Part shown: piece by piece, positions 8,827 through 21,736 of the stretch
Layout: every line of letters begins with the position of its first letter
Numbering within the stretch: position 1 is the first letter of the stretch
Origin: a virus
Length of the DNA: 24,842 nucleotides
Virus record (IMG/VR): IMGVR_UViG_3300032282_001781
Location: 1-24,842 of that record
Strand: one strand, 5' to 3'
Notes under the pieces: generated by a model
The model's input: the letters and a program-made list of their open reading frames with translations, nothing else
Databases searched by the model: none
Told to the model about the DNA's origin: nothing
Made by a program: the position numbers and the translations under genes

Positions 8827-8832
8827 GCATAT

Positions 8833-8925: not shown

Positions 8926-8931
8926 GATATT

Positions 8932-9813
8932 ATGCCATATGAGATAAGACATAACATTGAGGGTTGCAGCGGTTACGCTGTTGTGCTGAAGGATTCTGGG
9001 AAGATTGTCACATGTCATCCTGACAAGACTTCAGCGCTCAAGCATCTCGCCGCCCTTGAGATTAATGTGGAGGAAGCCAAGATGGAGAAGGCTGAGGGTC
9101 ATACACCAAATGATGGTATGGTTTCAGCAGCAAAGCGCGCCCTTAAATGGAAAGAAGAAGGGCATGCTGGTGGAACCAGCATTGGTCTGGGCCGCGCTCA
9201 TCAAATTGTGAACCGCGAGAGTCTTAGTGATTCCACTGTGAAAAGAATGTATTCTTTCTTCAGCCGTCATGAGGTTGACAAGAAGGCCAAAGGCTTCTCC
9301 TCAGGAGAGGAAGGCTTCCCCAGTCCCGGCAGAGTTGCGTGGGATTTGTGGGGCGGTGACTCAGGGTACTCTTGGTCTAGGGACAAGGTGGCCGGTATGG
9401 AGAAACTTTTCATGCATGGTGGAAGCACAGAGTTCAAGGTTGAGTACAATGTTGGAGATTGTCAGGGCGGCTGGGCGGTATTGAAAGATGGCACTGGACA
9501 AGTTGTAGGATGTTACAAGACTGAGAATGAAGCCATCGATCACATGGAAGAACTGACAACTGAGATGACTGACATTCTTGGTGATGAGGTTAGGACTTCC
9601 AAGTCTCCGAATGAATATTCTGAGAAAGCATATGGCGCTACAAGTTTCTGGGATGGAGTTTTCTTTCCGGCTCAGAAGGGTGTCATGGGAATTGACAATG
9701 ATACCAATAAAGAGAACGCTAGATTTGTTTCAACATATAACACGCCGCCACAGAAGGACGGCACAGAAAGTACCGGCTACGGAAATAGTAGCGGCGGTAC
9801 AAATCCAAGATAA
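8932..9813 (+). CDS. Phage virion/maturation-type protein with duplicated domain
   Basis: A 293-residue protein. Residues 1-45 (YEIRHNIEGCSGYAVVLKDSG, then KIVTCHPDKTSALKHLAALE) and 168-212 (FKVEYNVGDCQGGWAVLKDG, then GQVVGCYKTENEAIDHMEEL) are two copies of a small domain often attached to phage portal or capsid-maturation proteins. Between them, residues about 62-150 (MVSAAKRALKWKEEGHAGGT, LGRAHQIVNRESLSDSTVKRMYSFFSRH, PSPGRVAWDLWGGDSGYSW) match a module found C-terminal to capsid-maturation protease and related structural proteins of actinophages. No protease catalytic set is seen, so this looks like a separated accessory domain. It is probably expressed from a leaderless promoter. Confidence 0.7.
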   Translation: MPYEIRHNIEGCSGYAVVLKDSGKIVTCHPDKTSALKHLAALEINVEEAKMEKAEGHTPNDGMVSAAKRALKWKEEGHAGGTSIGLGRAHQIVNRESLSDSTVKRMYSFFSRHEVDKKAKGFSSGEEGFPSPGRVAWDLWGGDSGYSWSRDKVAGMEKLFMHGGSTEFKVEYNVGDCQGGWAVLKDGTGQVVGCYKTENEAIDHMEELTTEMTDILGDEVRTSKSPNEYSEKAYGATSFWDGVFFPAQKGVMGIDNDTNKENARFVSTYNTPPQKDGTESTGYGNSSGGTNPR

Positions 9814-9824
9814 CAGGAGAAGTA

Positions 9825-9983
9825 ATGGCAGTATTTGACAGACTTTTTGATCTGTTCAAGCCCGTCGTTTCGAAAGAAACGGACACTTGTGCGTCAGGAT
9901 ATCCTGACTGGAAGCCAAGTGAAACTTGGACACCAAAATTTGATGACAATGGAGCAGAACCGGAGGCTTACGATGGCGACTAA
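9825..9983 (+). CDS. Small acidic protein upstream of endolysin
   Basis: A 52-residue frame starting at ATG 9825 behind CAGGAGAAG. The product begins MAVFDRLFDLFKPVV (amphipathic) and ends in an acidic tail (KFDDNGAEPEAYDGD). The endolysin ATG (9973) and its GGAGG site lie inside the 3' end, so the genes are coupled. The amphipathic start could touch the membrane or a virion partner, but there is no full TM segment, so holin is unlikely. The gene contains a 16-bp perfect palindrome at 9893-9908. Confidence 0.65.
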   Translation: MAVFDRLFDLFKPVVSKETDTCASGYPDWKPSETWTPKFDDNGAEPEAYDGD

Positions 9984-10896
9984 GACTCCCACATATGGCC
10001 AGATCAAGCAAGCATTCATCGATCATGGCGTTAATTTCAAAGAGGTTAAGGGTTGTACGACAATTGGTCGTCCATGGGATTCAAATAATCCATTGGTGGG
10101 ACATGTTCATCACCACACAAGCACGCCAAGTGCTACGGATTCCAATCCCAATCCCGCCCCCACGCTTGAATGGTTGATGACAGCATTCTCAAAACCAGCA
10201 GCAAACTGCCTCGTTGGTCGTGATGGTGTGGTTTACATCTGCTCATGGGGTTCTTGCTTCCACTCAGGTCTTGGCGGGCCTTGGAAATCGCGCGGCCTTT
10301 CAGGAGGAAATACAGGTCACTACCGACTCTGGGGAACAGAGATTGATGATCCCGGCAATGGGAAAACAATAAATGCCAAGCAGATTGAAGCAGTTGGTAG
10401 AATGGACGCGGCCTTCATGAAACTTTGTGGCTGGGATGAGTATGCTCTGATCAATCACGCTGACTGGACGGATGCTGGGCAATGGCTGAAGAATCCTCAG
10501 GGTCAGGCTGATGGTCCTGCTGGACGTTACGAGGGTCGCAAGAATGACACTCTTCGTCAATACTATCCAGCATCATTCTGGAGAACTAATGCCAAGAAGT
10601 ATGTTGTTGGTCCTACGCCTCCCGCTCCAACACCCACTCCTCTGAAGAAGGTGTGGCTTGTGTCTGTGCAGCCGGGAAAGCGTAACCAACAGGTTTGGAC
10701 TGTGCAGAATGCTCTTAAGCAAGAGGGTCTGTATTCTGGAACTCCAACTGGGTATTTTGACGCTGCTACAAAGGCTGCTTATGCTAAATGGCAAAATCGT
10801 CTAGGATACACTGGAACAGATGCAAACGGCGTTCCCGGTATTCAATCATTGACAAATCTGGGCGATAAGTATAAATTCGTTGTAGCCACCGCATGA
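9973..10896 (+). CDS. Endolysin: N-acetylmuramoyl-L-alanine amidase + peptidoglycan-binding domain
   Basis: A 307-residue protein. The N-terminal Amidase_2 domain (about 1-205) has VHHHTS (His46-48, zinc ligand region), CLVGRDGVVYICSWGSCFHSGLG, GTEIDDPG and a second-ligand region NHADWTDAGQW. A Pro/Thr linker (PTPPAPTPTP, about 212-222) joins a C-terminal peptidoglycan-binding repeat (QVWTVQNALKQEGLYSGTPT, GYFDAATKAAYAKWQNRLGY). It cleaves the amide between MurNAc and L-Ala in the cell wall at lysis. No signal peptide, so it needs a holin or other export. The start is ATG 9973 with GGAGG at 9962-9966; an upstream in-frame ATG (9835) lies inside the small gene and lacks a ribosome site. Confidence 0.93.
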   Translation: MATKTPTYGQIKQAFIDHGVNFKEVKGCTTIGRPWDSNNPLVGHVHHHTSTPSATDSNPNPAPTLEWLMTAFSKPAANCLVGRDGVVYICSWGSCFHSGLGGPWKSRGLSGGNTGHYRLWGTEIDDPGNGKTINAKQIEAVGRMDAAFMKLCGWDEYALINHADWTDAGQWLKNPQGQADGPAGRYEGRKNDTLRQYYPASFWRTNAKKYVVGPTPPAPTPTPLKKVWLVSVQPGKRNQQVWTVQNALKQEGLYSGTPTGYFDAATKAAYAKWQNRLGYTGTDANGVPGIQSLTNLGDKYKFVVATA

Positions 10897-10902
10897 TATA
10901 AT
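10894..10902 (+). promoter_or_regulatory. Possible extended -10 after the endolysin
   Basis: TGATATAAT, identical to the element at 6923, overlaps the endolysin stop. Transcription would start near 10909, immediately before the hairpin at 10915-10941, so a ferritin mRNA from it would carry that hairpin at its 5' end. Confidence 0.4.
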
Positions 10903-10914
10903 TATTTTAAGCAT

Positions 10915-10941
10915 GGGGGGTCGAATGATCTTCGGCCCCCC
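10915..10941 (+). terminator. Strong GC hairpin between endolysin and ferritin genes
   Basis: GGGGGGTCGAA (10915-10925) pairs with TTCGGCCCCCC (10931-10941) around a TGATC loop, giving 11 pairs with one G-U. The downstream tract (TATTAAATTT) is AT-rich but not a clean T run. It may terminate the endolysin transcript or stabilise the 5' end of the next mRNA. Confidence 0.65.
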
Positions 10942-10965
10942 TATTAAATTTAAAGAGGAATTATT

Positions 10966-11412
10966 ATGGCATTGGTAGAAGAACTCAAGACATTGCAGGC
11001 AAACGCATTTGCCATGTACTCACAGGCACATGGATATCACTGGAATGTTGAGGGTATGCTGTTCAAGGAACTGCACGCATTCTTCCTTGAGATTTATGAT
11101 GACGTGTATGATTCAATTGATCCAATTTCAGAGAATATTCGCAAACTTGGTTCCAAGGCACCATTTGGTGTGTATCAGTGGGCTTCAAACGCAACCGTAA
11201 AGATCAACGATGATTCCAATATATCCCCCGTTGACATGTTGAAGGAACTGACATTGACAAATGCTCTGATGGTTGAGCAGTTGAAGAGAATTTTTGTTGT
11301 TGCTGATCAGGAAAATGAGCAGGCCATAGCGAATTTTATCGCTGACAGGCTTGACAAGCATCAGTTCTGGCACTGGCAATTGACATCTACGCTGAAAGTA
11401 ACAACGGTATAA
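10966..11412 (+). CDS. Dps-like ferritin family protein
   Basis: A 148-residue helical protein, close to the Dps subunit length. The ferroxidase signature HWNVEGMLFKELH then YDSIDPISENIRKLGSKAP gives His25, His37, Asp52 and Glu56 in Dps ligand positions; the site matching E. coli Dps Asp67 is Leu41, with Glu42 next to it. Family role: 12-mer cages that bind DNA and/or oxidise Fe2+ with peroxide, protecting DNA. The lack of a Lys-rich N-terminal tail argues against strong DNA binding. It has a clear ribosome site (AAAGAGGA) and its own upstream hairpin. It could protect phage DNA or store iron; a host origin by transfer is likely. Confidence 0.85.
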   Translation: MALVEELKTLQANAFAMYSQAHGYHWNVEGMLFKELHAFFLEIYDDVYDSIDPISENIRKLGSKAPFGVYQWASNATVKINDDSNISPVDMLKELTLTNALMVEQLKRIFVVADQENEQAIANFIADRLDKHQFWHWQLTSTLKVTTV

Positions 11413-11414
11413 CC

Positions 11415-11443
11415 TTGACCGGATAGCCTATATTTGGTAGAAT
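11415..11443 (+). promoter_or_regulatory. -35/-10 promoter for a leaderless lysozyme-like gene
   Basis: TTGACC (11415-11420), 17-bp spacer, TAGAAT (11438-11443), then 7 bases to ATG 11451. This is a near-consensus sigma70-type promoter whose start point would fall at or next to the start codon. No ribosome-binding sequence lies between. Confidence 0.7.
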
Positions 11444-11450
11444 TGATTGT

Positions 11451-11969
11451 ATGGTTATCCTAAAAAGGATTGCTCCCGTGGTTGCGCTTCTTGCCATGTT
11501 TTTTATGGCACAGCCACCAGCCGCCCAGAGCATGATCCTGAAAAATAACTCTGCAACACAAACAACACAACAAATAAAAATTGCAAAATGCAACAACAAG
11601 ATCGTAAAATGGATGTACACCGCAGGTTTCCGTGGACAATCTTTGAGAATCGGTTATGCGATTATCATGAGAGAATCCGGTGGAAATCCGAAAAACATCA
11701 CATACAACGATTGGGGGTTGTGGCAAATTAATCGCCCGACCCACCCACAATATTCAGGTTCTGCCCTACTTGATCCTATTAGAAGTTCAAGGATCGCATA
11801 TAAGATGACTAAGGGCGGGAAGTATTGGATTCCTTGGGGTATCGGAATGACACGTTCCGGCAAGCCATATATGGATGCCAGAGACTACGATGGAATTTGG
11901 AATCAGTGGAAGAAAGATAACTGGATTTGGATTCCGTTTAGTAGATATTACAGATCGTATCCATGCTGA
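11451..11969 (+). CDS. Secreted lysozyme-like / lytic transglycosylase-like protein
   Basis: A 172-residue protein. Residues 1-26 form a signal peptide or signal anchor (VILKR, then APVVALLAMFFMA, then PPAAQS). The rest has the goose-lysozyme/transglycosylase pattern: IGYAIIMRESGGNPKNI with Glu75 as the likely catalytic acid, then NDWGLWQINRPTHPQ, ALLDPIRSSRIAYKMT and YWIPWGI. It would cut glycan strands outside the membrane, either at lysis without a holin (secreted or signal-arrest type) or as a wall-access factor. It is likely transcribed alone from the leaderless promoter just upstream. A virion-bound role is less likely given the signal peptide. Confidence 0.85.
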   Translation: MVILKRIAPVVALLAMFFMAQPPAAQSMILKNNSATQTTQQIKIAKCNNKIVKWMYTAGFRGQSLRIGYAIIMRESGGNPKNITYNDWGLWQINRPTHPQYSGSALLDPIRSSRIAYKMTKGGKYWIPWGIGMTRSGKPYMDARDYDGIWNQWKKDNWIWIPFSRYYRSYPC

Positions 11970-11981
11970 ATATACATAATC

Positions 11982-12022
11982 GGGCCATAGCGGCCCATAC
12001 GACTGATATTAAATAGCAGTCG
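11982..12022 (+). other. Two adjacent hairpins before the tRNA cluster
   Basis: GGGCC-ATAGC-GGCCC (11982-11996) is followed by CGACTG/CAGTCG (12000-12005 with 12017-12022, 11-base loop); the second ends directly at the first base of tRNA-Met. The first may terminate the lysozyme-like transcript; the second may guide processing of the tRNA precursor. Confidence 0.5.
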
Positions 12023-12094
12023 GCCTCCTTGGTATAATGGATATTACGGCGCTCTCATAAGGCGCAGAAGATGGTTCAATTCCGTCAGGAGGTA
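12023..12094 (+). tRNA. tRNA-Met(CAU), elongator or Ile2 type
   Basis: Acceptor GCCTCCT/AGGAGGT with a G1-U72 wobble, anticodon stem GCGCT/GGCGC, loop CTCATAA (anticodon CAT), T arm GATGG-TTCAATT-CCGTC, discriminator A12094. It lacks the C1-A72 mismatch and the three G-C pairs of an initiator. A separate UAU tRNA for AUA exists at 5011, which makes Met more likely than lysidine-modified Ile. One C separates it from tRNA-Thr. Confidence 0.9.
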
Positions 12095-12095
12095 C

Positions 12096-12168
12096 GCCGG
12101 ATTAACTCAGGGGTCAGAGTTCTCGCCTTGTAAGCGAGCAGTCGTCAGTTCGAATCTGACATCCGGCT
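12096..12168 (+). tRNA. tRNA-Thr(UGU)
   Basis: Acceptor GCCGGAT/ATCCGGC, D stem ACTC/GAGT, anticodon stem CTCGC/GCGAG, loop CTTGTAA (anticodon TGT), T arm GTCAG-TTCGAAT-CTGAC, discriminator T12168, followed by C and no encoded CCA. Confidence 0.96.
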
Positions 12169-12172
12169 CTGA

Positions 12173-12260
12173 GGAAACGTGGCCGAGTGGTTTAAGGCGA
12201 GGGATTGCTAATCCCTTGTACATTTATAATGTACCGGAGGTTCGAATCCTCTCGTTTCCG
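12173..12260 (+). tRNA. tRNA-Ser(GCU)
   Basis: Acceptor GGAAACG/CGTTTCC, anticodon stem AGGGA/TCCCT, loop TTGCTAA (anticodon GCT), long variable arm GTACATT/AATGTAC as in class II tRNAs, T loop TTCGAAT, discriminator G12260. A single C separates it from tRNA-Ile. Confidence 0.96.
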
Positions 12261-12261
12261 C

Positions 12262-12333
12262 CCACAGGTAGTGAAACGGTAATCACGCAATTCTGATAAA
12301 ATTGTATTGGAGGTTCGATTCCTCCCTTGTGGA
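12262..12333 (+). tRNA. tRNA-Ile(GAU)
   Basis: Acceptor CCACAGG/CTTGTGG with one G-U, D stem GTG/CAC, anticodon stem CAATT/AATTG, loop CTGATAA (anticodon GAT), T arm GGAGG-TTCGATT-CCTCC, discriminator A12333. With the UAU tRNA at 5011 it covers all Ile codons. Confidence 0.95.
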
Positions 12334-12351
12334 CTCTAGAAAGGTCTATTA

Positions 12352-13488
12352 ATGAAAATAGGAATGCTTTCCTCAGACTGGGGCGATTACCAAATTTCCA
12401 GTCCCGGTGGCTGTACATGGATTAGAATGTTTGGCCCCGCAGCAGAATTGAACAATCTAGGAATTGAAACTGTAATTGGTGAAGTGGGTTGGCGGGACGA
12501 CGAGGGCTTTGTCGCTGTTTCAACTCAAGACAGATTGATGATGAAGAATCGTGGACCGATCAAGAATCCTAGTAATTACTCTGGCGGTCTTGATGTTGTC
12601 ATATTCAAACTATGGATGTGGCATGAGGCTAATGAGTATATTGAACGTGCCCAGCAAATGGGGCAGACAATAATCATTGACATTGATGACTGGTTCCACG
12701 GTCTGCCGACCACGAACATCGCTTTCCAGACAACACATCCTGATCGTGATGCGACTTGGAATCGAAATCATATGTTGAACACATACAGGAATGTCAATGG
12801 TCTGATAACCAGTACAGAATTCTTGCAGGATTATTATTCCAAGTTTAATGAAAATGCTTATCAAGTTCATAATTCATTAAAGCCAAGTTATTTTATCAAG
12901 CGTATTGATGCTGCTGGAGCAAAGCCGACAATTGGATGGGTTGGAATCATGATCTGGCGATCCGGCGACATTGAAGAATTACGCGGTTGGCTGGGTCCAT
13001 TCCTAGATGAGTATGATCTAAGATTTCATCATGCTGGCATAAACTTTGAAGACCCGAAAGAGTTTGCCAAGATTGCCAACATTGATCCTGAAAGATTGAC
13101 AGGAACTCCCGGCGCTAGCCCACAATACTATGGGAATATCCTGCTTCCAATGGATATAGGAATTGTTCCGTTGAACAAGTTGCCATTTAACGAGGCAAAG
13201 AGCAGCCTGAAGGGCTTGGAGTATGCCATGTCTGGCATTCCATTCGTTGCCTATGGCTCCAACGAGTACAAGAAGTTGGAAGCAGAAGGTGCTGGAAACA
13301 CTGCGGTCAAGCCACGCCAATGGATCAAGCACATGGAAAAGTTAATTGATCCCGCAGAGAGAAGGCGGCAGGCTGATCGTGGCTATGAATTAGTCATTGA
13401 CAAGTATAATATTGAGAATGTAGTCTATAAGTGGATTGATGCGATAGAGCGTATTCATCAGGCTAACCCTAGGAGAAAAGATGGATAG
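12352..13488 (+). CDS. Glycosyltransferase, GT-B fold (GT4-like)
   Basis: A 378-residue protein. The N-terminal domain starts MKIGMLSSDWGDYQISSPGGCTWIRMFGPAAEL, the typical GT-B acceptor-side opening, with an acidic IIIDIDDWFHGL at about 105-116. The C-terminal domain has a strand TIGWVGIMIWRSGDIEELRG (about 193) and the GT4 signature stretch PFNEAKSSLKGLEYAMSGIPFVA (about 278-300) with an acidic/Lys pair for the nucleotide-sugar donor. The C-terminal helix (YELVIDKYNIENVVYKWIDAIERI) packs back as in the family. The donor and acceptor are unknown. It is transcribed just after the tRNA cluster and overlaps the next gene by 8 bases. Confidence 0.8.
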   Translation: MKIGMLSSDWGDYQISSPGGCTWIRMFGPAAELNNLGIETVIGEVGWRDDEGFVAVSTQDRLMMKNRGPIKNPSNYSGGLDVVIFKLWMWHEANEYIERAQQMGQTIIIDIDDWFHGLPTTNIAFQTTHPDRDATWNRNHMLNTYRNVNGLITSTEFLQDYYSKFNENAYQVHNSLKPSYFIKRIDAAGAKPTIGWVGIMIWRSGDIEELRGWLGPFLDEYDLRFHHAGINFEDPKEFAKIANIDPERLTGTPGASPQYYGNILLPMDIGIVPLNKLPFNEAKSSLKGLEYAMSGIPFVAYGSNEYKKLEAEGAGNTAVKPRQWIKHMEKLIDPAERRRQADRGYELVIDKYNIENVVYKWIDAIERIHQANPRRKDG

Positions 13489-13777
13489 CGGAAAGTTCTG
13501 GTATTACGTCGGCGCTGCCGTAGGAACAATAATTCGTTTCGTAATCATTGCAATATGCATTTATGGCTTTGTAACTCAGATTTGGAATCGTGAGATTCCA
13601 TACATTCCGATAATGCTGTTCCTTATCTATCAGATTTGGTCTAAGACTTATGTGGTTTATGAGGCTGTTGTATTCTTGGCAAGGAATCCCCCCAAGGAGA
13701 CTCTGAGTCCTTCAGAGATTGAGAGGCTTGTGGCATTGATTAATTTCAAGAATTTGCATGGTGGCGGGCCGAATTAA
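13481..13777 (+). CDS. Small two-TM membrane protein, holin candidate
   Basis: A 98-residue protein with hydrophobic helices at about 8-32 (YVGAAVGTIIRFVIIAICIYGF) and 40-62 (YIPIMLFLIYQIW, then YVVYEAVVFLA), then a charged cytoplasmic-type tail. Size, two membrane spans and a polar tail are compatible with a class II holin, and no other holin is evident near the lysins. It is, however, 1.5 kb from the nearest lysin and sits between a glycosyltransferase and an Ntn hydrolase, so an accessory role is equally possible. Confidence 0.7.
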   Translation: MDSGKFWYYVGAAVGTIIRFVIIAICIYGFVTQIWNREIPYIPIMLFLIYQIWSKTYVVYEAVVFLARNPPKETLSPSEIERLVALINFKNLHGGGPN

Positions 13778-14316
13778 TGACTTGCATTGTGGCGATAGTG
13801 GACAGGCATAGAAGGATTACGATGGGAGCAGATTCATCTGCTGTGGATGAGACTATCCATACCCCCCACCTTGACCCTAAGGTATTTGTCAAGGGTGAGG
13901 GTGAGATAGCGATCGGATATTGTCATAGTTTTAGAATGGGTCAGATTATAGAATTCTGGTTTACCCCGCCGCCTCTTCCTGAGGGTTCAGAGAATATGAT
14001 GCGTTACATGGTGACAGAATTCATTCCTGAATTGAAATCTGTTTTGTCAGATCATGACTATCCAAACAACGAAGAGGACAAGACAGAATGGTCTTTGATT
14101 GTTGGAGTTCGTGGGCATATATTCACCATTGAGTCTGACTGGCATGTTGGCTATGATGATCTTCCGTATGCGTCTATCGGTGCTGGTTCTTCCTATGCAT
14201 TGGGAGCGATGTATACCGCCCAAGATACTACCGACATAGTGGCCAAGAAAGCGCTGGAGGCGGCAGAAAAATTCTGCCCCTATGTCCTAGGACCATTTCA
14301 TTTCATAGAGGTTTAG
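13777..14316 (+). CDS. HslV/proteasome-like Ntn hydrolase
   Basis: A 179-residue protein starting Met-Thr-Cys; removal of Met would expose Thr2 as the N-terminal nucleophile. MTCIVAIVDRHRRITMGADSSAVD parallels the proteasome beta/HslV start, with Asp19 and Lys35 (PKVFVKG) falling close to catalytic Asp17/Lys33. GEIAIGYCHSFRMGQII resembles the Gly-rich active-site strand, and YASIGAGSSYALGAMYTA is the conserved GSGxxYALGAL region. Family role: threonine peptidase, usually in rings with an unfoldase. No ATPase partner is visible here. It overlaps the membrane protein stop by one base (TAATG). Peptidase activity is inferred, not shown. Confidence 0.82.
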   Translation: MTCIVAIVDRHRRITMGADSSAVDETIHTPHLDPKVFVKGEGEIAIGYCHSFRMGQIIEFWFTPPPLPEGSENMMRYMVTEFIPELKSVLSDHDYPNNEEDKTEWSLIVGVRGHIFTIESDWHVGYDDLPYASIGAGSSYALGAMYTAQDTTDIVAKKALEAAEKFCPYVLGPFHFIEV

Positions 14317-14535
14317 ATGAACTTGCTGGACTTTGAACCCAATTCGGACTTGCCACAGTTTGATCTTTCTGGGATAATTATGCATGAGTGCATCTGTGGT
14401 TCAGACATGTGGCGGGTCGTAGTATCCTTTGAGGACTATGAAATTTCTTCTTACATGCTGGATATGGAATGCTTTCATTGTGGGACTAGGGCCAAGGCTC
14501 CGACTCCCATAGATAATCCAGATTATGAGGGATAG
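14317..14535 (+). CDS. Small zinc-ribbon-like protein
   Basis: A 72-residue protein with HECICGSDMW (CxC) and MECFHCGTRA (CxxC), probably one zinc ribbon, between acidic termini. It directly follows the Ntn hydrolase stop with no gap. No family is recognised beyond the general actinophage small-Cys class. Confidence 0.7.
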   Translation: MNLLDFEPNSDLPQFDLSGIIMHECICGSDMWRVVVSFEDYEISSYMLDMECFHCGTRAKAPTPIDNPDYEG

Positions 14536-14537
14536 TT

Positions 14538-14720
14538 ATGTATGATGGGATAGCCAAGAAGTTTCATGAGAAGTTCATCGGCGGTGAACTGAATTCTCAG
14601 ACCATGGAAATAGCACACCAATATGTCAAATTTATCATTGATGCATATGAGGATGCGTGGAATGATTATGCCAAAACTTACGAGAACGAGGAATTTGATG
14701 AATCGGACGAAAGCGATTGA
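14538..14720 (+). CDS. Hypothetical acidic helical protein
   Basis: A 60-residue protein: likely helices (GIAKKFHEKFI, then TMEIAHQYVKFIIDAYEDAWNDYAKTY) and a very acidic C-terminus (ENEEFDESDESD). It starts 2 bases after the previous stop. No family is recognised. Confidence 0.6.
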   Translation: MYDGIAKKFHEKFIGGELNSQTMEIAHQYVKFIIDAYEDAWNDYAKTYENEEFDESDESD

Positions 14721-14925
14721 ACACATGGCCAAGGCCATGATTAAGTATGATCAGAATGCTATCAGCAAGACGTGGAAAGATTTGGCAACAATTTCTCTAG
14801 AAGCACTTGAAGAATATATGGGTACTACGAGATACTGGATGTCAGCAGAGTTCGAACGTGACAGCGTGTTGCGTGAGATAGAGGCCACTATAGATAGGAT
14901 TCGTAATGCAGACATTTCTCTCTGA
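14698..14925 (+). CDS. Hypothetical helical protein
   Basis: A 75-residue protein starting at ATG 14698 behind GAGGA inside the end of the previous gene. Mostly helical, amphipathic (AIEHMAKAMIKYDQNAISKTW, then SLEALEEYMG, then SVLREIEATIDRIRNAD). An in-frame ATG at 14725 is an alternative. Its end overlaps the next gene by 20 bases. Unknown function. Confidence 0.6.
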   Translation: MNRTKAIEHMAKAMIKYDQNAISKTWKDLATISLEALEEYMGTTRYWMSAEFERDSVLREIEATIDRIRNADISL

Positions 14926-15379
14926 GTATACATTCGCTGAGTCAGCCGCCGTGCTGGATCAGAAGCGGCTTGTCAAGCAGTTGCTGGAAGGCCGTCAGAT
15001 CATGCAGGCGCTCTCAGGAAATTCCAAGGGCTGGCGTAATCACCCAGCAACTCGCATGTGGCAGGGGCACGCTGGTGCCCTCTACTTCTACCTAATGTGC
15101 ATGCGTAATGAGATGGATAAGCGTGGCTACAAGTGGGAGAACAACTGGCATGAGATTGAACTCATGCGCCATACCTACTTTCAGGATGAGGATTCATATC
15201 CTGATTGGATGACTACCGGCGAGTTTGCCCAAGTTGTCACCACTCACCGTGCCAATCTGCATCTCAAGGCTCCTGATCTTTATCCCCAGTATGCTCTTGA
15301 GACAATCAATTATCGTAATGATGTATGCTGTGAGCGTTGTAATTATCATTGGCCTACGCATGTAAAGGATGCGGCATGA
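14906..15379 (+). CDS. MSMEG_6728-like protein (pyrimidine-dimer glycosylase/endonuclease V family-like)
   Basis: A 157-residue protein. MQTFLSEYTFAESAAVLDQKRLVKQLLEGRQIMQAL, then KGWRNHPATRMWQGHAGALYFYLMCM matches the family in actinobacteria and their phages often annotated as pyrimidine-dimer DNA glycosylase or MSMEG_6728 family. In T4 endonuclease V the nucleophile is Thr2; here residue 2 is Gln and Thr is residue 3, so classic activity is uncertain. A C-terminal CCERC knuckle is an addition. If active, it would repair UV damage in phage DNA. The start ATG 14906 lies inside the previous gene. Confidence 0.75.
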   Translation: MQTFLSEYTFAESAAVLDQKRLVKQLLEGRQIMQALSGNSKGWRNHPATRMWQGHAGALYFYLMCMRNEMDKRGYKWENNWHEIELMRHTYFQDEDSYPDWMTTGEFAQVVTTHRANLHLKAPDLYPQYALETINYRNDVCCERCNYHWPTHVKDAA

Positions 15380-15462
15380 GTGAGTTTTATCCAGAGGAAT
15401 TTTATGCAGATGAAGTTTGGTCAGATTGGGAGGGATGGGATGAGGAAGAAGAGAGAGCGTAA
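15376..15462 (+). CDS. Tiny acidic peptide (28 residues)
   Basis: ATG 15376 overlaps the preceding TGA (ATGA). The peptide is extremely acidic and aromatic (MSEFYPEEFYADEVWSDWEG, then a run of Glu). The GGGAGGG in its 3' half is the ribosome site of the next gene, so it could act as a leader peptide. Small size keeps this tentative. Confidence 0.4.
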   Translation: MSEFYPEEFYADEVWSDWEGWDEEEERA

Positions 15463-15613
15463 GGATTATTTCCTTGGCCCCTTGCATGTAATTGTTCGTA
15501 ATCACAGCGAGAGTTCGCAGTATGGTTTTCTAACTTGGTCTATTAATCGTAAGCACACAGTTGATGTTTGGTTTGCACAGACATTGATTACTATCAGAAG
15601 GAATTCGATATGA
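15440..15613 (+). CDS. Hypothetical small basic protein
   Basis: A 57-residue protein starting at ATG 15440, chosen because GGGAGGG (15428-15434) sits five bases upstream; a GTG at 15380 is in frame but unsupported. It starts with a basic run (MRKKRERKDYFLG) and continues as beta strands (LHVIVRN, then YGFLTWSIN, then TVDVWFAQTLITI). Unknown function. Confidence 0.55.
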   Translation: MRKKRERKDYFLGPLHVIVRNHSESSQYGFLTWSINRKHTVDVWFAQTLITIRRNSI

Positions 15614-15849
15614 ACCACGACCCGCTATGCTGGACATACATTAAAGGTCTTCCAGACCTGACAAATCCATGTGATGCATGCGCTAAGATTGCTATGATTC
15701 GCGCCGATGAAAAGGCTAAATGGGTGATTAGACCAGAATGTGATTTCAGTCCTGATGGCAGGCATGGGGACTTCCGCTTTGGACCGGAAAAAGATTTATG
15801 CGGATATTGTTCAGAAGACGTTTCTCGTTTATTTGAAATGGGGCAGTAA
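15610..15849 (+). CDS. Small Cys protein, paralogue of the next gene
   Basis: A 79-residue protein starting ATG 15610 behind AAGGA. CDACAKIAMIRADEKAKW is followed by a second cluster DLCGYCSEDV. The CxxCA, IAMIRADE motif recurs in the next gene as CGCAHVEMIRRDERE. It is probably a zinc-stabilised actinophage protein of unknown function. Confidence 0.7.
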   Translation: MNHDPLCWTYIKGLPDLTNPCDACAKIAMIRADEKAKWVIRPECDFSPDGRHGDFRFGPEKDLCGYCSEDVSRLFEMGQ

Positions 15850-16091
15850 TGAATAATCCATTGGATGATGCAATCAATAGTGGTGCTGGACATAGTGTTC
15901 CCCGTGTTCGGTCATTACCGAACACCGAACAAGACTCGCTTAAGCACGATAAGTTTTGTCCAATTAGTGATCCTTCTGCGGGTGTTCCATATTGTGGTTG
16001 TGCCCACGTTGAAATGATTCGTCGTGACGAGCGGGAAAGAATTGAGAATGAACGCTCACCAATTTGGTCGGAGGCAATGGATGCCGACTAG
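15849..16091 (+). CDS. Small Cys protein with C-x-C and IRxDE motif
   Basis: An 80-residue protein; TAATG overlap with the previous gene. FCPISDPSAGVPYCGCAHVE then MIRRDERERIENE is a pattern found in many actinophage hypothetical proteins. The coding sequence contains a strong inverted repeat (15896-15931). Function unknown. Confidence 0.7.
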   Translation: MNNPLDDAINSGAGHSVPRVRSLPNTEQDSLKHDKFCPISDPSAGVPYCGCAHVEMIRRDERERIENERSPIWSEAMDAD

Positions 16092-16266
16092 CACCTGTGT
16101 GAGCAAGACTCATCAGGAATATTGGTGTCTAGGATATTATTATACGTCTCACAACAAGTTCACCGCCGAAAAATGGTGTGACCCATGTCGTGAGCGGTTC
16201 AAGGACGATATTGATTCAGGAAGGATTACGACTGGTGTCAGAAAAAGTCGTACAAAGAAAGCATAA
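16081..16266 (+). CDS. Hypothetical Cys-containing basic protein
   Basis: A 61-residue protein; ATG 16081 lies six bases after GGAGG (16070-16074) inside the end of the previous gene. It has YWCLGYYYTSHNKF and WCDPCRERF (CxxC), then a basic tail ending RKSRTKKA. Possibly a small nucleic-acid-binding zinc protein. Confidence 0.6.
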   Translation: MPTSTCVSKTHQEYWCLGYYYTSHNKFTAEKWCDPCRERFKDDIDSGRITTGVRKSRTKKA

Positions 16267-16420
16267 TTGTGCTTTCTGCAAAGTAGCCATTGACAGTGGC
16301 GAGAAAATCGGCGGCAGGGTACAATCGAAACCATCGGACATTTGGGTGGATCGTTACATCTGTGTGTCCTGCTATAAAATATTGTGGGACAAGATAGACT
16401 ATGAGAAGGGTTATCTATGA
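16235..16420 (+). CDS. Small zinc-knuckle protein
   Basis: A 61-residue protein with CAFCKVAID then YICVSCYKILW, two CxxC knuckles 27 residues apart, reading as a treble-clef or PARP-like zinc fold. I chose GTG 16235, with AGGAAGG about 11 bases upstream, since no ATG is available; the start is uncertain. It overlaps both neighbours. Confidence 0.6.
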   Translation: MSEKVVQRKHNCAFCKVAIDSGEKIGGRVQSKPSDIWVDRYICVSCYKILWDKIDYEKGYL

Positions 16421-16683
16421 GTAAGCCACTGTGGTGGAAGAATTCGGTCAAGTTGATTAAGAAGTTTACCTCTGAGGATAGTTGGGCAGAGTTTCATATC
16501 AACGAAGAACTAAAGAATGTGGTATTTGTGTACTATGTCAACATTGAGGGGGAAAGGTTTGAGTGCGAGCAGAGGGTAACGTTTGACTCTCTTGAATCAA
16601 ATCTTCAGGATCAGGTGTTTGACATGCTGCATGAGTCTTTCAGGTATTCGATTGAACGTTACATAGAGACGGTGCATCTATGA
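16417..16683 (+). CDS. Hypothetical protein
   Basis: An 88-residue protein: mixed strands (WAEFHINEELKNVVFVYYVN, then ERFECEQRVTF) and a C-terminal helix (LQDQVFDMLHESFRYSIERYIE). ATGA overlaps with both neighbours show tight coupling. No family recognised. Confidence 0.65.
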   Translation: MSKPLWWKNSVKLIKKFTSEDSWAEFHINEELKNVVFVYYVNIEGERFECEQRVTFDSLESNLQDQVFDMLHESFRYSIERYIETVHL

Positions 16684-16877
16684 TTGACGTTATCAGTTTG
16701 AATGATGTTTATTATGTCAACATTGATGATTTCATAAATCATCTGAATATCTGTGCTGAGTCTGTGATTGCGTTCACGGCTGACTCCGCGCCGGTAGGCG
16801 CAAAGATGGTCACCGATACTTTGTACACAACCATTGAAACTCTAGAAGGATTTAAAGAGGATGTTCGTGTAGTATGA
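16680..16877 (+). CDS. Hypothetical protein
   Basis: A 65-residue protein (MIDVISLNDVYYVNIDDFINHLNI, then SAPVGAKMVTDTLYTTIETLEGF). ATGA overlaps at both ends. Unknown function. Confidence 0.6.
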   Translation: MIDVISLNDVYYVNIDDFINHLNICAESVIAFTADSAPVGAKMVTDTLYTTIETLEGFKEDVRVV

Positions 16878-17068
16878 GCGATGACTACTATTACTACAAG
16901 GAACGGTGCCGGGAGTTGGAGAATGAACTCTCCACCGCCCAAAAAACTATTGCCAATTTACAGCGAAAGTTATATGATGTTCAGAGTGCAGTAAGAGGTA
17001 GGACAGTTTCAAATGCCTCCGATGTTCTGTCATTGATAGCGTGGACCGTCTACGATTGGAAGGATTGA
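16874..17068 (+). CDS. Small coiled-coil protein
   Basis: A 64-residue protein; after a Tyr-rich start (MSDDYYYYKERC) residues about 10-42 form a heptad-like coiled coil (CRELENELSTAQKTIANLQRK). Likely oligomeric; function unknown. Confidence 0.6.
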   Translation: MSDDYYYYKERCRELENELSTAQKTIANLQRKLYDVQSAVRGRTVSNASDVLSLIAWTVYDWKD

Positions 17069-17069
17069 C

Positions 17070-17339
17070 ATGGAGAAGTATGTGATGGAGCATACTGATA
17101 TCACTCTAGTTGTTCATGAGTCAGATAGTTGTATGGGGGAGCATTGCACTGTCCACAATAAGTCTGATCATTCTATGAGAGGCTTTCCGCAGCATTGGCG
17201 TGAGGATCGTGGAATCATGGAGCGCATTTGTTCACATGGCATTGGTCATCCTGACCCTGATTCTACTTGGCCCGCCCATTATGCTGAATGGGTGCATGGT
17301 TGCGACGGATGTTGCGCGGGTTCGTATGATGCACAATGA
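17070..17339 (+). CDS. Conserved small His/Cys-rich actinophage protein
   Basis: An 89-residue protein with many His and Cys residues: SCMGEHCTVHNKSDHSM, then PQHWREDRGIMERICSHGIG, HPDPDS, and the C-terminal HGCDGCCAG. The pattern ERICxHGxGHPDPD plus HGCDGCC recurs in actinophage hypothetical proteins as I recall. Probably zinc-bound. An alternative start is ATG 17085. Confidence 0.7.
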   Translation: MEKYVMEHTDITLVVHESDSCMGEHCTVHNKSDHSMRGFPQHWREDRGIMERICSHGIGHPDPDSTWPAHYAEWVHGCDGCCAGSYDAQ

Positions 17340-17502
17340 TCAGATTGAGAATCATCTACGATCTTCTTACAGAGCATTGGCAAAATGCTTGATAGAATTT
17401 CGTGAGCATGGTATAAATGATGAGGTAGCACAAGAACTCATGGACCTTGAGTTTCAGACTTGGGCCATGCTAGACCGTATACAGAGAAATAGGAGAGTTT
17501 GA
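17326..17502 (+). CDS. Hypothetical helical protein
   Basis: A 58-residue protein starting at ATG 17326 or 17329 inside the end of the previous gene; longer in-frame starts would lie within that gene. Helical throughout (QIENHLRSSYRALAKCLIEF, then VAQELMDLEFQTWAMLDRIQ). Unknown function; the start is uncertain. Confidence 0.55.
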   Translation: MMHNDQIENHLRSSYRALAKCLIEFREHGINDEVAQELMDLEFQTWAMLDRIQRNRRV

Positions 17503-17762
17503 TGAGATTGCACACTACAGCCGTTCCGGCCACAAAGTACCTACCTGAGCGTATTCATGTCAAGGTAACTGATAACAACAATGTGCCAAATAATGTCAAG
17601 GATCGCACCTATCAAGTTGCTGAGTACAGCGATGTTGAGCATGATTGGGTTGCGGCACGCTTCCTGAATGATGTTGTTGGCAAGGGTCATGCACATCTGA
17701 ATAGGATTGGCACGACACTTACTGAGCGAGGATATGTATATGAGGTTGTGGAAAGTGTTTGA
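17502..17762 (+). CDS. Hypothetical protein
   Basis: An 86-residue protein; ATG 17502 shares a base with the preceding stop and has AGGAG at 17491-17495. Strand-rich (RIHVKVTDN, then DRTYQVAEYSDVEHDWVAARFL, then GYVYEVVESV). Unknown function. Confidence 0.65.
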   Translation: MRLHTTAVPATKYLPERIHVKVTDNNNVPNNVKDRTYQVAEYSDVEHDWVAARFLNDVVGKGHAHLNRIGTTLTERGYVYEVVESV

Positions 17763-17970
17763 GATAGAGGAACTTGTCAGTTATCTTGAAGATGTAATGA
17801 TTGCCATTCAGGTGGCTCAGAAATCTGCTGACCATGGTGATATCACCAATGCCATTTACAACATTGATCATGCTGAGATTAACATGCAGCGTGCAAGAAA
17901 TCTTGCTATTAATATTCAGCACGGCCCGCGCCGCGTAGCCGTGCGTGGAGAATATGATGAAATCCCGTAG
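17740..17970 (+). CDS. Hypothetical helical protein
   Basis: A 76-residue protein; ATG 17740 lies eight bases after GAGG (17728-17731), better than ATG 17734 at two bases. Helices (EIEELVSYLEDVMIAIQVAQ, then ITNAIYNIDHAEINMQRAR). Unknown function. Confidence 0.6.
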   Translation: MRLWKVFEIEELVSYLEDVMIAIQVAQKSADHGDITNAIYNIDHAEINMQRARNLAINIQHGPRRVAVRGEYDEIP

Positions 17971-18166
17971 GCTTAGAAAGCCACGGGAGAAAAGACTTCC
18001 CGTAATAATCTATACAGATAATTGCAAGCCTGCTACTATTAAGAAAATAAAGCAATTGTGGGTATCCACCACTGCATGGCCCTGCCTAGTTGTAGGGCCG
18101 GGGGTTACAGTATCCCACCCCGATTATTCAACGCATGACTACATTATTAAGGAGAACAATGGGTGA
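17957..18166 (+). CDS. Hypothetical basic alpha/beta protein
   Basis: A 69-residue protein from ATG 17957 (GGAG at 17947-17950). A basic N-terminus (MKSRRLRKPREKRL) leads to an alternating strand/helix order (PVIIYTD, then ATIKKIKQLW, then PCLVVGPGVTV). GTG 17945 is an alternative start. Unknown function. Confidence 0.55.
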   Translation: MKSRRLRKPREKRLPVIIYTDNCKPATIKKIKQLWVSTTAWPCLVVGPGVTVSHPDYSTHDYIIKENNG

Positions 18167-18509
18167 CCTTGAGTTCAGTGACCTCTACCTCTCTGCCAAT
18201 GAGTATCTTGACATCATTGCTAAGGTAGCGCAGGATTCAGAATTCTTTGACAACATGGATGACAAGACGTGGCATCCTGAGGATTTGTACTACAACATGT
18301 CTACAATTACTGAGACTGTTGGTCAGGCTATCAAGCATTACATGACATTCGTTAACAGTCGCAGGCTGGCAAATATTCGCGGGACAAGGGCGGAAGCCAT
18401 TCAGAAGAACATTCAAGATATAATGAATGAGTATCAGGCTGCCAATCCTGAGCGTACTCAGGTATTTGGCGGAACAGTTCCAAGTAGCGCATTCGGAGAT
18501 AAAGTCTGA
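18159..18509 (+). CDS. Hypothetical helical protein
   Basis: A 116-residue protein with a clear AGGAG site at 18150-18154. Mostly helical (EYLDIIAKVAQDSEFFDNM, then ITETVGQAIKHYMTFVNSRR, then AIQKNIQDIMNEYQAA) with a flexible C-terminal tail. ATG 18135 is in frame but lies within the previous gene and lacks a ribosome site. Unknown function. Confidence 0.65.
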   Translation: MGDLEFSDLYLSANEYLDIIAKVAQDSEFFDNMDDKTWHPEDLYYNMSTITETVGQAIKHYMTFVNSRRLANIRGTRAEAIQKNIQDIMNEYQAANPERTQVFGGTVPSSAFGDKV

Positions 18510-18742
18510 TGAGAGTAGCATTCTGGGATGATCGCAAGCCGTTTACCTATATTAGCACCACACCCGGCCCTACAGATGTGGTATATGACATTCCGCACAA
18601 AATAGTGGAGCAATATGTCAAGTGTATGGATGAGTTCCTAAAGGTTCAAAGTCTGATTCATATGTTTATTCGTGAACAGGATTTGCGGGATGATGGTGAA
18701 GATTTTTCTGTATCTCATAAAGTAATGAAGTTCAAGGACTGA
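18509..18742 (+). CDS. Hypothetical protein
   Basis: A 77-residue protein; TGATG overlap with the preceding gene. It starts MRVAFWDDRKPFTYISTTPG and continues as a helix (IVEQYVKCMDEFLKVQSLIHMF). Unknown function. Confidence 0.6.
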   Translation: MRVAFWDDRKPFTYISTTPGPTDVVYDIPHKIVEQYVKCMDEFLKVQSLIHMFIREQDLRDDGEDFSVSHKVMKFKD

Positions 18743-18743
18743 C

Positions 18744-18926
18744 GTGGAAGTTGATAGAGTTTATGACCCATTCTCGCAAGAGAGTAGAGTTTATCTCTGC
18801 ATGACGGAGGATGAGTTGAGAACTCTCAGATTTGACATCGCAGTAGCATTGGCTTATATGCATGAGTTGGATGGAAACACTCTTGACGCAATGAATAGAT
18901 TCCTGTATGATACTGATGATGTCTAG
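18744..18926 (+). CDS. Hypothetical protein ending at tRNA-Arg
   Basis: A 60-residue acidic protein starting at GTG 18744, directly after the previous stop (MEVDRVYDPFSQESRVYLCM, then LRFDIAVALAYMHELDG). The last base of its TAG stop is the first base of tRNA-Arg, so the mRNA and the tRNA share a nucleotide. Unknown function. Confidence 0.6.
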   Translation: MEVDRVYDPFSQESRVYLCMTEDELRTLRFDIAVALAYMHELDGNTLDAMNRFLYDTDDV

Positions 18927-18998
18927 CCGCCGTAGTTCAGGGGACAGAACGCGAAACTTCTAATTTCGATGTCGCTGGTTCGAATCCAGCCGGTGGTA
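18926..18998 (+). tRNA. tRNA-Arg(UCU)
   Basis: Acceptor GCCGCCG/CGGTGGT, D stem GTTC/GAAC, anticodon stem CGAAA/TTTCG, loop CTTCTAA (anticodon TCT), T arm GCTGG-TTCGAAT-CCAGC, discriminator A18998. It reads AGA, a codon used often by the genes here. One C separates it from tRNA-Glu. Confidence 0.96.
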
Positions 18999-18999
18999 C

Positions 19000-19072
19000 G
19001 GCCCCATCATCTAGAGGCCAAGGATGCAGGACTTTCATTCCTGTCGCACGGGTTCGAATCCCGTTGGGGCTA
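19000..19072 (+). tRNA. tRNA-Glu(UUC)
   Basis: Acceptor GGCCCCA/TGGGGCT with a G1-U72 wobble, anticodon stem CAGGA/TCCTG, loop CTTTCAT (anticodon TTC), T arm ACGGG-TTCGAAT-CCCGT, discriminator A19072. Confidence 0.95.
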
Positions 19073-19085
19073 CAAAATTAAACAT

Positions 19086-19158
19086 GGTGTCATAGGCCGA
19101 AAAGCGAGGCGTATGTTTGTGGAACATATTGTAGCGGGAGCATTACCCGTATGACACC
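19086..19158 (+). tRNA. tRNA-His(GUG), non-canonical D and T loops
   Basis: G-1 at 19086 opposite C73 (19158), the His identity pair; acceptor GTGTCAT/ATGACAC (19087-19093 with 19151-19157), D stem GCC/GGC, anticodon stem TATGT/ACATA, loop TTGTGGA with anticodon GTG (19119-19121), 5-base variable loop, T stem GCGGG/CCCGT. The T loop is AGCATTA instead of TTCRANN, and the D loop GAAAAGCGA lacks the G18G19 pair, so the usual elbow contacts are missing. It lies in line with tRNA-Glu and tRNA-Lys. Confidence 0.75.
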
Positions 19159-19162
19159 CCAA

Positions 19163-19236
19163 GCCTCGTTAACTCAGTTGGTCAGAGTAGCGGACTCTTA
19201 ATCCGCGAGTCGTTGGTTCGAATCCAACACGGGGCA
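19163..19236 (+). tRNA. tRNA-Lys(CUU)
   Basis: Acceptor GCCTCGT/ACGGGGC with one wobble, D stem ACTC/GAGT, anticodon stem GCGGA/TCCGC, loop CTCTTAA (anticodon CTT), T arm GTTGG-TTCGAAT-CCAAC, discriminator A19236. One C separates it from the next gene's ATG. Confidence 0.95.
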
Positions 19237-19237
19237 C

Positions 19238-19704: not shown

Positions 19705-20009
19705 ACGAGGAAGAAGAGATTCATAGTCTGATCGATGATTTGGTTGCGATGGGTGCATTGATTCGTCAGCCTGATCCGGTCGGTGGAGAAGTTATGTACA
19801 ATGTCAATTCTGAAAGAATGGTAGAGGTAATGCCTTCATTATACGATTTGTTCATGGAAGAGATTGAGCAGACAATGCTTAGCCTGTACGAACAGGGTCT
19901 TGTGAAGATTGAGTATGATGAGAATCTTAAGGCATTGTATTCCCTGACCGAAGAGGGACATCGGGTAGTTGAGAGCATAATAATCACAACCCCCGACTTT
20001 GATGTATAA
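19701..20009 (+). CDS. Acidic protein with winged-helix-like pattern
   Basis: A 102-residue protein. SLIDDLVAMGALIRQPD and MLSLYEQGLVKIEYDENLKALYSLTEEGHRVVES read like the recognition-helix and wing portion of small winged-helix regulators (the xxGLVxxxxxxxxxxYxLTxxG pattern). It may be a transcription regulator or adaptor. The strongly acidic N-terminus is unusual for DNA binding, so this is tentative. Confidence 0.65.
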   Translation: MNEEEEIHSLIDDLVAMGALIRQPDPVGGEVMYNVNSERMVEVMPSLYDLFMEEIEQTMLSLYEQGLVKIEYDENLKALYSLTEEGHRVVESIIITTPDFDV

Positions 20010-20572
20010 TGGAATTGACAATGACTGACAATCGTAATGTTATTGACTTCTACAAAGGATGGGAAACAGATGCAATCAAAGCCGACCTTGATAGAAACCG
20101 TCTTCCCTTCATTGCCGCCTTTGAGCATGTCAACGGTGATTTCAATAAGGCTACCGGGATTCGCAACACCAATGGATTTCTGGGCCGGGAGGTTTGGATC
20201 GTAGGTGAGCGCGCGAAGCGCTATGACAAGCGCGGCACAGTCGGCACACACCATTATGAACACGTCAAGTACGCGGATTCGTGGCTTTCCGTTTTTAGAG
20301 GCATTGATGATTTTCCTGATTATCGTGTTGTCGCAGTTGATAATGTTAGTGGTGCGTGCGACATTAGAGAGTATAATTGGAGTCCGAAAACCATCATGAT
20401 GTTTGGCGAGGAGCAGCGCGGATTATCAGAAGAGGCTTTTTTGTTTGCCGATGACATTGTTTATATTCCCATGCGTGGATCAGTTCGCAGTTTCAATGTA
20501 GGAACGTCCAGCGGAATCGCAATGTATGATTATTTTACAAAAACGGGGATGAATGACCCCATTGACCTGTGA
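20009..20572 (+). CDS. SpoU/TrmH-family RNA 2'-O-methyltransferase
   Basis: A 187-residue protein with the SPOUT knot motifs: motif 1-like NRLPFIAAFEHVNGDFNKATGIRN, motif 2 KTIMMFGEEQRGLSEEA (FGEEQRGLS at 132-140) and motif 3 VYIPMRGSVRSFNVGTSSGIAMYDY (about 151-175). The family methylates ribose 2'-O of tRNA or rRNA with SAM. Arg/Asn/Glu residues of motifs 1-3 are present, so it is probably active. It lies about 0.8 kb after a tRNA cluster, which suggests tRNA as substrate. The start is ATG 20009 (TAATG overlap), with ATG 20021 as an alternative. Confidence 0.92.
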   Translation: MELTMTDNRNVIDFYKGWETDAIKADLDRNRLPFIAAFEHVNGDFNKATGIRNTNGFLGREVWIVGERAKRYDKRGTVGTHHYEHVKYADSWLSVFRGIDDFPDYRVVAVDNVSGACDIREYNWSPKTIMMFGEEQRGLSEEAFLFADDIVYIPMRGSVRSFNVGTSSGIAMYDYFTKTGMNDPIDL

Positions 20573-20754: not shown

Positions 20755-21009
20755 ATGGATAACAACCAACAATCAGCAAGCCAGCCATCTGGCAAGCCTA
20801 CAGTGGAAAACGCAACTCTTGGACACACAGAAGTTTCTCAGCCAGTCACCAACCTTGGCGTTAACGAGCCAAAGACTATGAGCGGAAACAGTGTTCAAAG
20901 TCCTTTGAGTGGTTCAGATGTCTCCATGACAACTGGACAGCCTTACGGTGGTCCTATTGCCTCAACAGAGGTAGAGCCTAACGTTCGCAGGGAAGCAGGC
21001 CCATACTAA
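20755..21009 (+). CDS. Low-complexity Ser/Gln/Pro-rich protein
   Basis: An 84-residue protein, rich in Ser, Gln, Pro, Gly and Asn (MDNNQQSASQPSGKPTVENA, later SGSDVSMTTGQPYGGPIAST), probably disordered. It is the first gene after the promoter at 20684-20713 and is one base from the Cys-rich gene. The pair looks co-expressed, perhaps as virion or scaffold-like factors. No family recognised. Confidence 0.65.
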   Translation: MDNNQQSASQPSGKPTVENATLGHTEVSQPVTNLGVNEPKTMSGNSVQSPLSGSDVSMTTGQPYGGPIASTEVEPNVRREAGPY

Positions 21010-21010: not shown

Positions 21011-21736
21011 ATGCCTGAAAATCAAGGACGACTATCACCATTTAGTTCGTCAAGCGGACAACATGATGAGGCCAATGACAATCATGTTGAATATTATGTT
21101 CGCCCGAGCGGAGGTGAAGACAAGATGTTAGATGTTAACTCTTCAGAGACAGTTGATCGTGGCTATGATCACTCAAGTTCAACAGAACCAGACCCTACTG
21201 GTACTATTGCCATGCAGAAAGAAGCCACATATACCAAGCCAGCCGAACTTGATGGCGTTGGAAAGTACAGCACAACAGCAAATTCAACTGTTGATGCTCC
21301 AGAATCTGGACAAACCACAGAGCCTTCAAGCGTACACAAAGCAGCATGCTGCGATGATTGTGGCGCTGAATGTGGTGGTGACTGCTGCCAAAAATGTTCT
21401 AAGATGGCGAAGGCTGCTGGTTGCTCTTGCACATGCGAGAACTGCCAGAAGTGCGCCATGATGAAGGCTGTTGGTTGCAATTGCTGCTCAGATTGTGGCG
21501 CTAACTGCAACGGAGATTGCTGCGATAAGTGCAGCATGACTTCCAAGGCAGAGGAAGCGGAAGACTTGGAGAAGGCTGCTAAGCCTGAGGATAAGGAAGA
21601 AGAGGAAGAGCCAGCAGATGATGTTGAAGAACTTGAGAAGGTTGCTCCGGTGGAAACCAAGCAATCTATCTGGGGTAACGCTTTTGCTCCCGGCATTCCA
21701 ACCGCCGCCATGAGAACAGTATTTAGACAAGAGTAA
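21011..21736 (+). CDS. Acidic protein with a central metallothionein-like Cys-rich block
   Basis: A 241-residue protein. Residues 1-110 are Ser/Thr/Glu-rich and probably disordered. Residues about 113-174 hold 20 Cys in two related units (CCDDCGAECGGDCCQKCSKM and CCSDCGANCNGDCCDKCSM) joined by GCSCTCENCQKCAMM. Residues about 176-215 are highly acidic (runs of Glu/Asp), and the tail (WGNAFAPGIPTAAMRTVFRQ) looks structured. Cys spacing (CC, CxC, CxxC) with no aromatic residue in the block suggests metal clustering like a metallothionein, or a multi-zinc structural module. It matches no family I know. It is followed by a terminator-like hairpin. Confidence 0.75.
   Translation: MPENQGRLSPFSSSSGQHDEANDNHVEYYVRPSGGEDKMLDVNSSETVDRGYDHSSSTEPDPTGTIAMQKEATYTKPAELDGVGKYSTTANSTVDAPESGQTTEPSSVHKAACCDDCGAECGGDCCQKCSKMAKAAGCSCTCENCQKCAMMKAVGCNCCSDCGANCNGDCCDKCSMTSKAEEAEDLEKAAKPEDKEEEEEPADDVEELEKVAPVETKQSIWGNAFAPGIPTAAMRTVFRQE

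Follow-up and report, generated by a model that had tools for sequence, protein, structure and literature searches.

A cysteine-rich phage protein with a scaffold-like C-terminal tag as a possible modular internal head protein

Gene content of the phage fragment

The viral DNA analysed here, 24,842 nucleotides in length and referred to below as the window, carries a terminase gene (3174-5006) whose product shares 62-66% identity over 96% of its length with those of Streptomyces phages, such as Gilson (Stanwilliamsviridae), among the matches listed. A DUF7455 gene and a WhiB-like gene, the latter recognised by eye, fit an actinobacterial host. The window also contains an IMP dehydrogenase-like gene (772-1905; phrog_9582 dehydrogenase, E 1.7e-95), a Dps/ferritin-like gene (10966-11412; PF00210), which is a second possibly metal-related gene of the phage, and ten tRNA genes scattered over 5011-19237; PADLOC returned no defence match worth following.

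The subject of this work is a plus-strand coding sequence of 241 amino acids at 21011-21736, which starts 1 nt past the stop codon of an 84-aa gene on the same strand (20755-21009). This upstream gene is kept beside it in relatives: its product shares 64% identity with the counterpart adjoining the homologous gene in a related locus, L293, and it lies upstream in other loci too. Both in the window and in L293, the neighbours of the cysteine-module gene are non-structural genes. At 20009-20572 the window has a SpoU-type RNA methylase gene (PF00588), and at that place L293 has a phrog_2859-type gene. No head protease lies within the window, and the scaffold used for comparison below is that of its relatives.

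The cysteine block and its coding status

The encoded protein has 20 cysteines within 62 residues (113-174; 21347-21532), and F, W, Y and H are all absent from this block. The initial annotation had counted 20 cysteines at 21347-21535 and had found no aromatic residues among them; the count and coordinates are correct, 21535 taking in one extra Ser codon, and the translation contains no F, W or Y there. Three clusters can be distinguished, all on the plus strand. Unit 1 (residues 113-129; 21347-21397) has the form CCxxCxxxCxGDCCxKC, with seven cysteines at 113, 114, 117, 121, 125, 126 and 129; unit 2 (residues 138-148; 21422-21454) has five, at 138, 140, 142, 145 and 148; and unit 3 (residues 156-174; 21476-21532) has the form CxCCxxCGxxCxGDCCxxC, with eight at 156, 158, 159, 162, 166, 170, 171 and 174. 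The first and last clusters have the 17-aa unit CCxDCGAxCxGDCCxKC in common, and their DNA (51 nt each) is identical at 36 of 51 positions. The two related units described initially were therefore recovered, with the five-cysteine cluster, not listed separately at that time, lying between them.

In four pairwise comparisons of the window gene with its homologues in L293, L294, L136 and L297, silent sites were at or near saturation, and dN was 0.36-0.48. Cysteines of the window protein aligned to cysteines in 15 of 16, 15 of 18, 13 of 14 and 8 of 10 cases, respectively, and silent TGT/TGC swaps were found at 6, 10, 7 and 2 of these aligned positions. Because homologues exist and dN is low against saturated silent sites, the frame at 21011-21736 is a real gene, and these comparisons indicate that the cysteine block is likewise real and under selection. 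AlphaFold2 modelled the protein with low confidence (mean pLDDT 53.7) and hardly any secondary structure, a result which is compatible with the disorder proposed for this protein but does not prove it.

The protein family and the evolution of its units

Homologues were collected from four overlapping sources, namely tblastn on 80 terminase-related loci (12 homologues), an alignment scan of viral contigs (41 loci), whole records (11 of 30 matched) and a scan with the Cys-rich members (12 loci). The family comprises 48 distinct proteins with a complete C-terminus, and it has no database annotation. A permissive DNA pattern modelled on a single unit hit at least 120 stretches and recovered 4 true family members among 80 loci examined; by eye, the remaining loci were of low complexity or in the wrong frame. 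The whole window protein had no useful match in Pfam, PHROGs, PDB sequences, phage records or viral contigs; at E<=1 it matched nothing in PHROGs, and its sole Pfam match was an unrelated DUF. A convincing homologue was absent from our copy of INPHARED (50,697 phage records searched), the genome contigs collection held no relatives of the Cys-rich set, the cysteine block matched no plasmid, and a whole-record scan of Gilson detected no copy of the family gene. A literature search, for which most subscription journals were outside coverage, found neither a phage protein of this kind nor a virion proteome in which to look for it.

The number of cysteines per member varies widely: 16 of the 48 proteins have 3, 22 have 6, four have 7-10, and one each has 12, 14, 15, 20, 23 and 25. 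The basic form of the family, with 3 or 6 cysteines in most members, consists of spaced, zinc-finger-like CxxC knuckles. Six members with CC-containing units, including the window protein, form one clade (support 100/98 in a 26-row tree), whose tree neighbours L296, L300, L301 and L302 have six cysteines each; judged from these sequences, CC-rich units have replaced the CxxC knuckles in the clade of the window protein. In the region of the gene, the loci L136 and L170 agree to about 97% and differ by exactly one 72-nt unit, the ends of which read MGMSK/A and MGMSK/S. Sequence comparison thus indicates that the Cys units evolve as whole units.

Probable metal binding and related cysteine motifs

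On the sequence evidence, no other use of the window protein's cysteines is as likely as metal binding. The zinc-finger-like basic form of the family, a His in place of a Cys in one unit of L136 and an iron-sulfur-type motif in sister proteins favour the metal-binding role suggested initially, whereas membership in a metallothionein family is unsupported. The 70-aa block matched no Pfam model at E<=10, a null to be read with the caveat that HMMER bias filters can suppress Cys-rich matches, and the label metallothionein-like does not hold as a family assignment. An alignment to a known non-metal structural family, which had been named as evidence against metal binding, was not found. Redox buffering and virion cross-linking, the other uses suggested initially, gained no support, yet nothing contradicted them either. 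Among PDB sequences, the only zinc-type matches for the block were weak ones to ribosomal eL43 (E 0.02-0.4), which we rejected since their alignments do not track the Cys units.

Basic members gave weak zinc-finger matches in NCBIfam and Pfam (TIGR02419, HVO_0758 and zinc ribbons), which fall short of a family assignment. The sister protein of L187 carries an iron-sulfur-type Cys motif (NF041615, E 2.5e-5, 24.5 bits against an NCBIfam cut-off of 100), with weak PioC and HiPIP matches (E about 0.04), and by eye L182 and L297 resemble L187 at this motif. The capsid maturation protease of phage DSL-LC01 contains, again by eye, two modules of the family, the iron-sulfur-type Cys motif and PDGS[FY]PI, the second of which is also present in L059, L029, L301 and others. 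In the same lake phage (locus L284, OQ999401.1), a gene annotated as high potential iron-sulfur protein (15074-15808) lies directly before the capsid maturation proteases.

The zinc-finger matches raise the idea of a regulator that targets host polymerase or nucleic acid through a TraR/DksA-like C4 finger. Two of 26 members matched TIGR02419 (best E 0.0011) and two matched PRK11019, all with low scores. However, L011 reached 19.3 bits against a curated cut-off of 59.7 for the TraR/DksA C4 zinc finger, neither a coiled-coil arm nor a confident fold is predicted, the finger spacing is lost in the Cys-rich clade, and the window protein itself has no match. We consider such a regulator highly improbable.

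The C-terminal tag

Near its end the window protein carries the sequence SIWGNAFAP (residues 219-227; 21665-21691, plus strand), which resembles the end of a phage scaffold. Within the last 40 aa of the 48 distinct family proteins, 47 have W-x-[GN]-x-F and the remaining one has W-x-S-x-F. The head proteases of these phages give Peptidase_S78 and phrog_9427 matches and have a scaffold-like C-terminal half. We compared 15 such protease-scaffolds (G004, G030, G031, G032, Gilson, six further Streptomyces phages, G033-G035 from loci L147, L143 and L145, and the Rhodococcus phage Peregrin); 14 end in W-x-G-x-F, and the fifteenth, from Peregrin, ends in F-x-G-x-F.

The stricter pattern S-x-W-x-[GNS]-x-F is borne by 3 of the 128 ORFs of G004 (0.35 expected) and by 3 of the 160 ORFs of G030 (0.29 expected), in both cases only in the protease-scaffold, the Cys-family protein and a homologue of the window protein encoded at 8932-9813, hereafter family 2. 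Among the 142 ORFs of G031 only the protease-scaffold and the family-2 protein bear it, because the tag of the Cys-family protein is offset there (SPIWKGAF) and is missed by the strict pattern. Gilson has 3 hits in 218 ORFs, two of them probably due to chance, and the window has 2 in 49 ORFs. The family-2 gene of the window (8932-9813, plus strand) has a tag of the same kind, SFWDGVFFP, at 9643-9669; its product is built from DUF2188-like and phrog_2859-like modules, and relatives have added a CMTCGCDDLGNDHHY Cys motif. The tag of the cysteine-module protein is preceded by KQS, not KS.

In profile-profile comparisons of the scaffold halves with the Cys family, only the C-terminal 14 columns, that is, the tag, aligned (E 3e-4, probability 39%), a modest value because a control comparison gave E 0.0037 at an unrelated place. 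Profiles of family 2 and the Cys family showed no shared tag, and family 2 and the scaffold showed only a very weak one. By sequence, therefore, the protein has one feature looked for in an internal head protein with a capsid-targeting tag: its terminal tag recurs in the scaffold of related phages.

A predicted nested start

A nested start is predicted at 21110-21127 on the plus strand, where GGAGGTGA-AGACAAG-ATG places an in-frame ATG at codon 39 (21125). Between the conserved YVR and EPDP stretches, 38 of the 43 distinct sequences of the family have GGAGG at start-site distance ahead of an in-frame ATG or GTG; 300 synonymous randomisations produced 10.4 such cases on average and 21 at most. 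The exceptions are L132, L133, L134, L182 and L187, and several Cys-rich sisters have the weaker ribosome site GGTGGTGA instead. The same device precedes the scaffold half in all 12 protease genes examined. In L140 (16024-17358) and L285-L291, from cultured Streptomyces phages and Peregrin, the predicted nested scaffold start inside the protease gene is GGAGGT with ATG or GTG; these loci have a conserved KKS stretch, and the annotation of the regions shown contains no separate scaffold feature.

A rival account makes the product a cytosolic metal-handling protein, a phage metallothionein whose benefit would be protection of the infected cell or a supply of zinc, with some other role for the tag. 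The density and spacing of the cysteines without aromatic residues, the C-to-H swap and the position of the gene among non-structural genes favour this explanation. On the other hand, no metallothionein model matches the block, and members with only 3 cysteines retain the tag, the nested start and the protease sites described below; Cys binding is therefore not the common function of the family. Overall, we regard a cytosolic role as unlikely, if still worth weighing.

Predicted prohead-protease sites

Four putative prohead-protease sites of the form [ILVM]-x-K/[AS], where the slash marks the predicted cut, lie on the plus strand around the clusters: VHK/A ahead of unit 1 (K110; 21332-21343), MAK/A at the boundary of units 1 and 2 (K134; 21404-21415), MMK/A at that of units 2 and 3 (K152; 21458-21469) and LEK/A past unit 3 (K188; 21566-21577). 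They fall before, between and after the clusters and never inside one, and a relaxed site, TSK/A at residues 177-180, forms a boundary outside the strict pattern. In 35 family proteins the pattern was observed 157 times where 14.2 occurrences are expected; the corresponding figures are 21 and 3.0 for 5 scaffold halves and 68 and 51.8 for 27 long background ORFs. Cleavage at these sites is a prediction, as the pattern was first read off these proteins; moreover, the statistics for tag and site are not independent, because both were defined after viewing these proteins and the family members are related.

When ORFs were ranked by site excess, the protease-scaffold and the Cys-family protein took the top two places in G004, G030 and G031. 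The cysteine-module protein headed the 49 ORFs of the window, and the family protein came second of 46 for the part of G002. The protease-scaffold of Gilson ranked only fourth of 218, and several cultured scaffolds have just one or two sites. In many family members a site directly precedes the tag.

Two further explanations deserve mention. The protein could be an accessory scaffold only, whose Cys knuckles stabilise an assembly intermediate and are all removed before DNA packaging. In its favour, tag, nested start and sites all match those of the scaffold gene, but the Cys expansion, the change in copy number and the strong conservation suggest that the Cys pieces themselves matter, and no copy was detected in Gilson; we judge this account rather improbable. 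Alternatively, it could belong to the virion and use its cysteines for disulfides or cross-links, formed after release, in place of metal sites, which would suit the many cysteines and the tag in common with the scaffold. However, clusters of 7 and 5 cysteines are odd in number, and pieces cut at the sites could therefore not pair all of their cysteines internally; the C-to-H swap and the zinc-finger-like basic form also argue against this possibility, to which we give little credence.

Proposed role of the protein

We give about even weight to the view that the gene encodes a modular internal head (procapsid) protein, which would be loaded by its scaffold-like tag and which the prohead protease is predicted to process into peptides that bind metal. 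The two family modules recognised by eye in the capsid maturation protease of DSL-LC01 also favour this view. The C-terminal tag S-x-W-x-[GN]-x-F-x-P, which resembles the end of the protease-scaffold, would dock the protein inside the growing capsid. The S78-type prohead protease would then cut at the [ILVM]-x-K/[AS] sites that separate the Cys clusters and, for many members, also just ahead of the tag. Small peptides with one Cys cluster each would stay in the head, where they may bind Zn(II) or Cu(I) through thiolates, and they may enter the host with the DNA. The initial annotation had offered a virion protein as one guess; a virion location is now favoured because this protein has a tag, a nested start and sites in common with the scaffold, which goes beyond the original view.

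What the sequences themselves show is the gene, its units, the selection on these units, the shared tag, the nested start signal, the excess and placement of sites and the change in unit copy number; capsid docking, virion location, cleavage, metal binding, ejection and any benefit to the phage are inferred. A main weakness of the head-protein reading is distance from the head cluster, outside of which the Cys-family gene lies: G004 has its protease at 11 kb and the family gene at 93.6 kb. The lack of a convincing homologue among the INPHARED phage records searched also counts against this reading. More tentatively, the protein might be a polyprotein of metal-binding mini-peptides that enters the prohead by means of a peptide resembling the scaffold C-terminus, is cut by the protease inside the shell and reaches the host with the DNA, the number and type of units (CxxC knuckle, CC-rich or HiPIP-like) being swapped between phages.

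If the head-protein reading is true, a large group of actinobacterial phages, cultured Streptomyces phages among them, would have a C-terminal head-targeting tag that lends itself to testing. The reading would also predict where their prohead protease cuts and would hint that metal- or thiol-rich peptides are carried in their heads. The tag could also serve to load chosen proteins into these capsids.

Comparison with known systems

The bacterial metallothioneins SmtA/BmtA and MymT hold their metals in thiolate clusters of CC, CxC and CxxC. The cysteine block has clusters of the same types; unlike these proteins, it has no Pfam match and sits within a longer, tagged protein, the clade of which adjoins members with CxxC knuckles. 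The sisters L182/L293, L187/L294 and L297 are, by eye, like the HiPIP/Iro iron-sulfur proteins in carrying a CxxCxxF-C-GYC-type motif, which the window protein does not have. In phage lambda, an in-frame start inside the head gene C yields the shorter product Nu3 with the same C-terminus; the nested start in the present phages is predicted from sequence alone, and it is also present in the Cys gene.

A further parallel is offered by the internal head proteins IPI-IPIII of phage T4. There, a short terminal capsid-targeting peptide has been proposed to direct a protein that the phage can dispense with to the head interior; the prohead protease removes this peptide, and injection together with the DNA is described for a T4 internal protein (PMC9958956). 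No sequence relation to the cysteine-module protein was seen, the tag is N-terminal in the T4 proteins and C-terminal here, and the cysteine-module protein differs further in its Cys-rich cargo and in its predicted cut site, [ILVM]xK/[AS].
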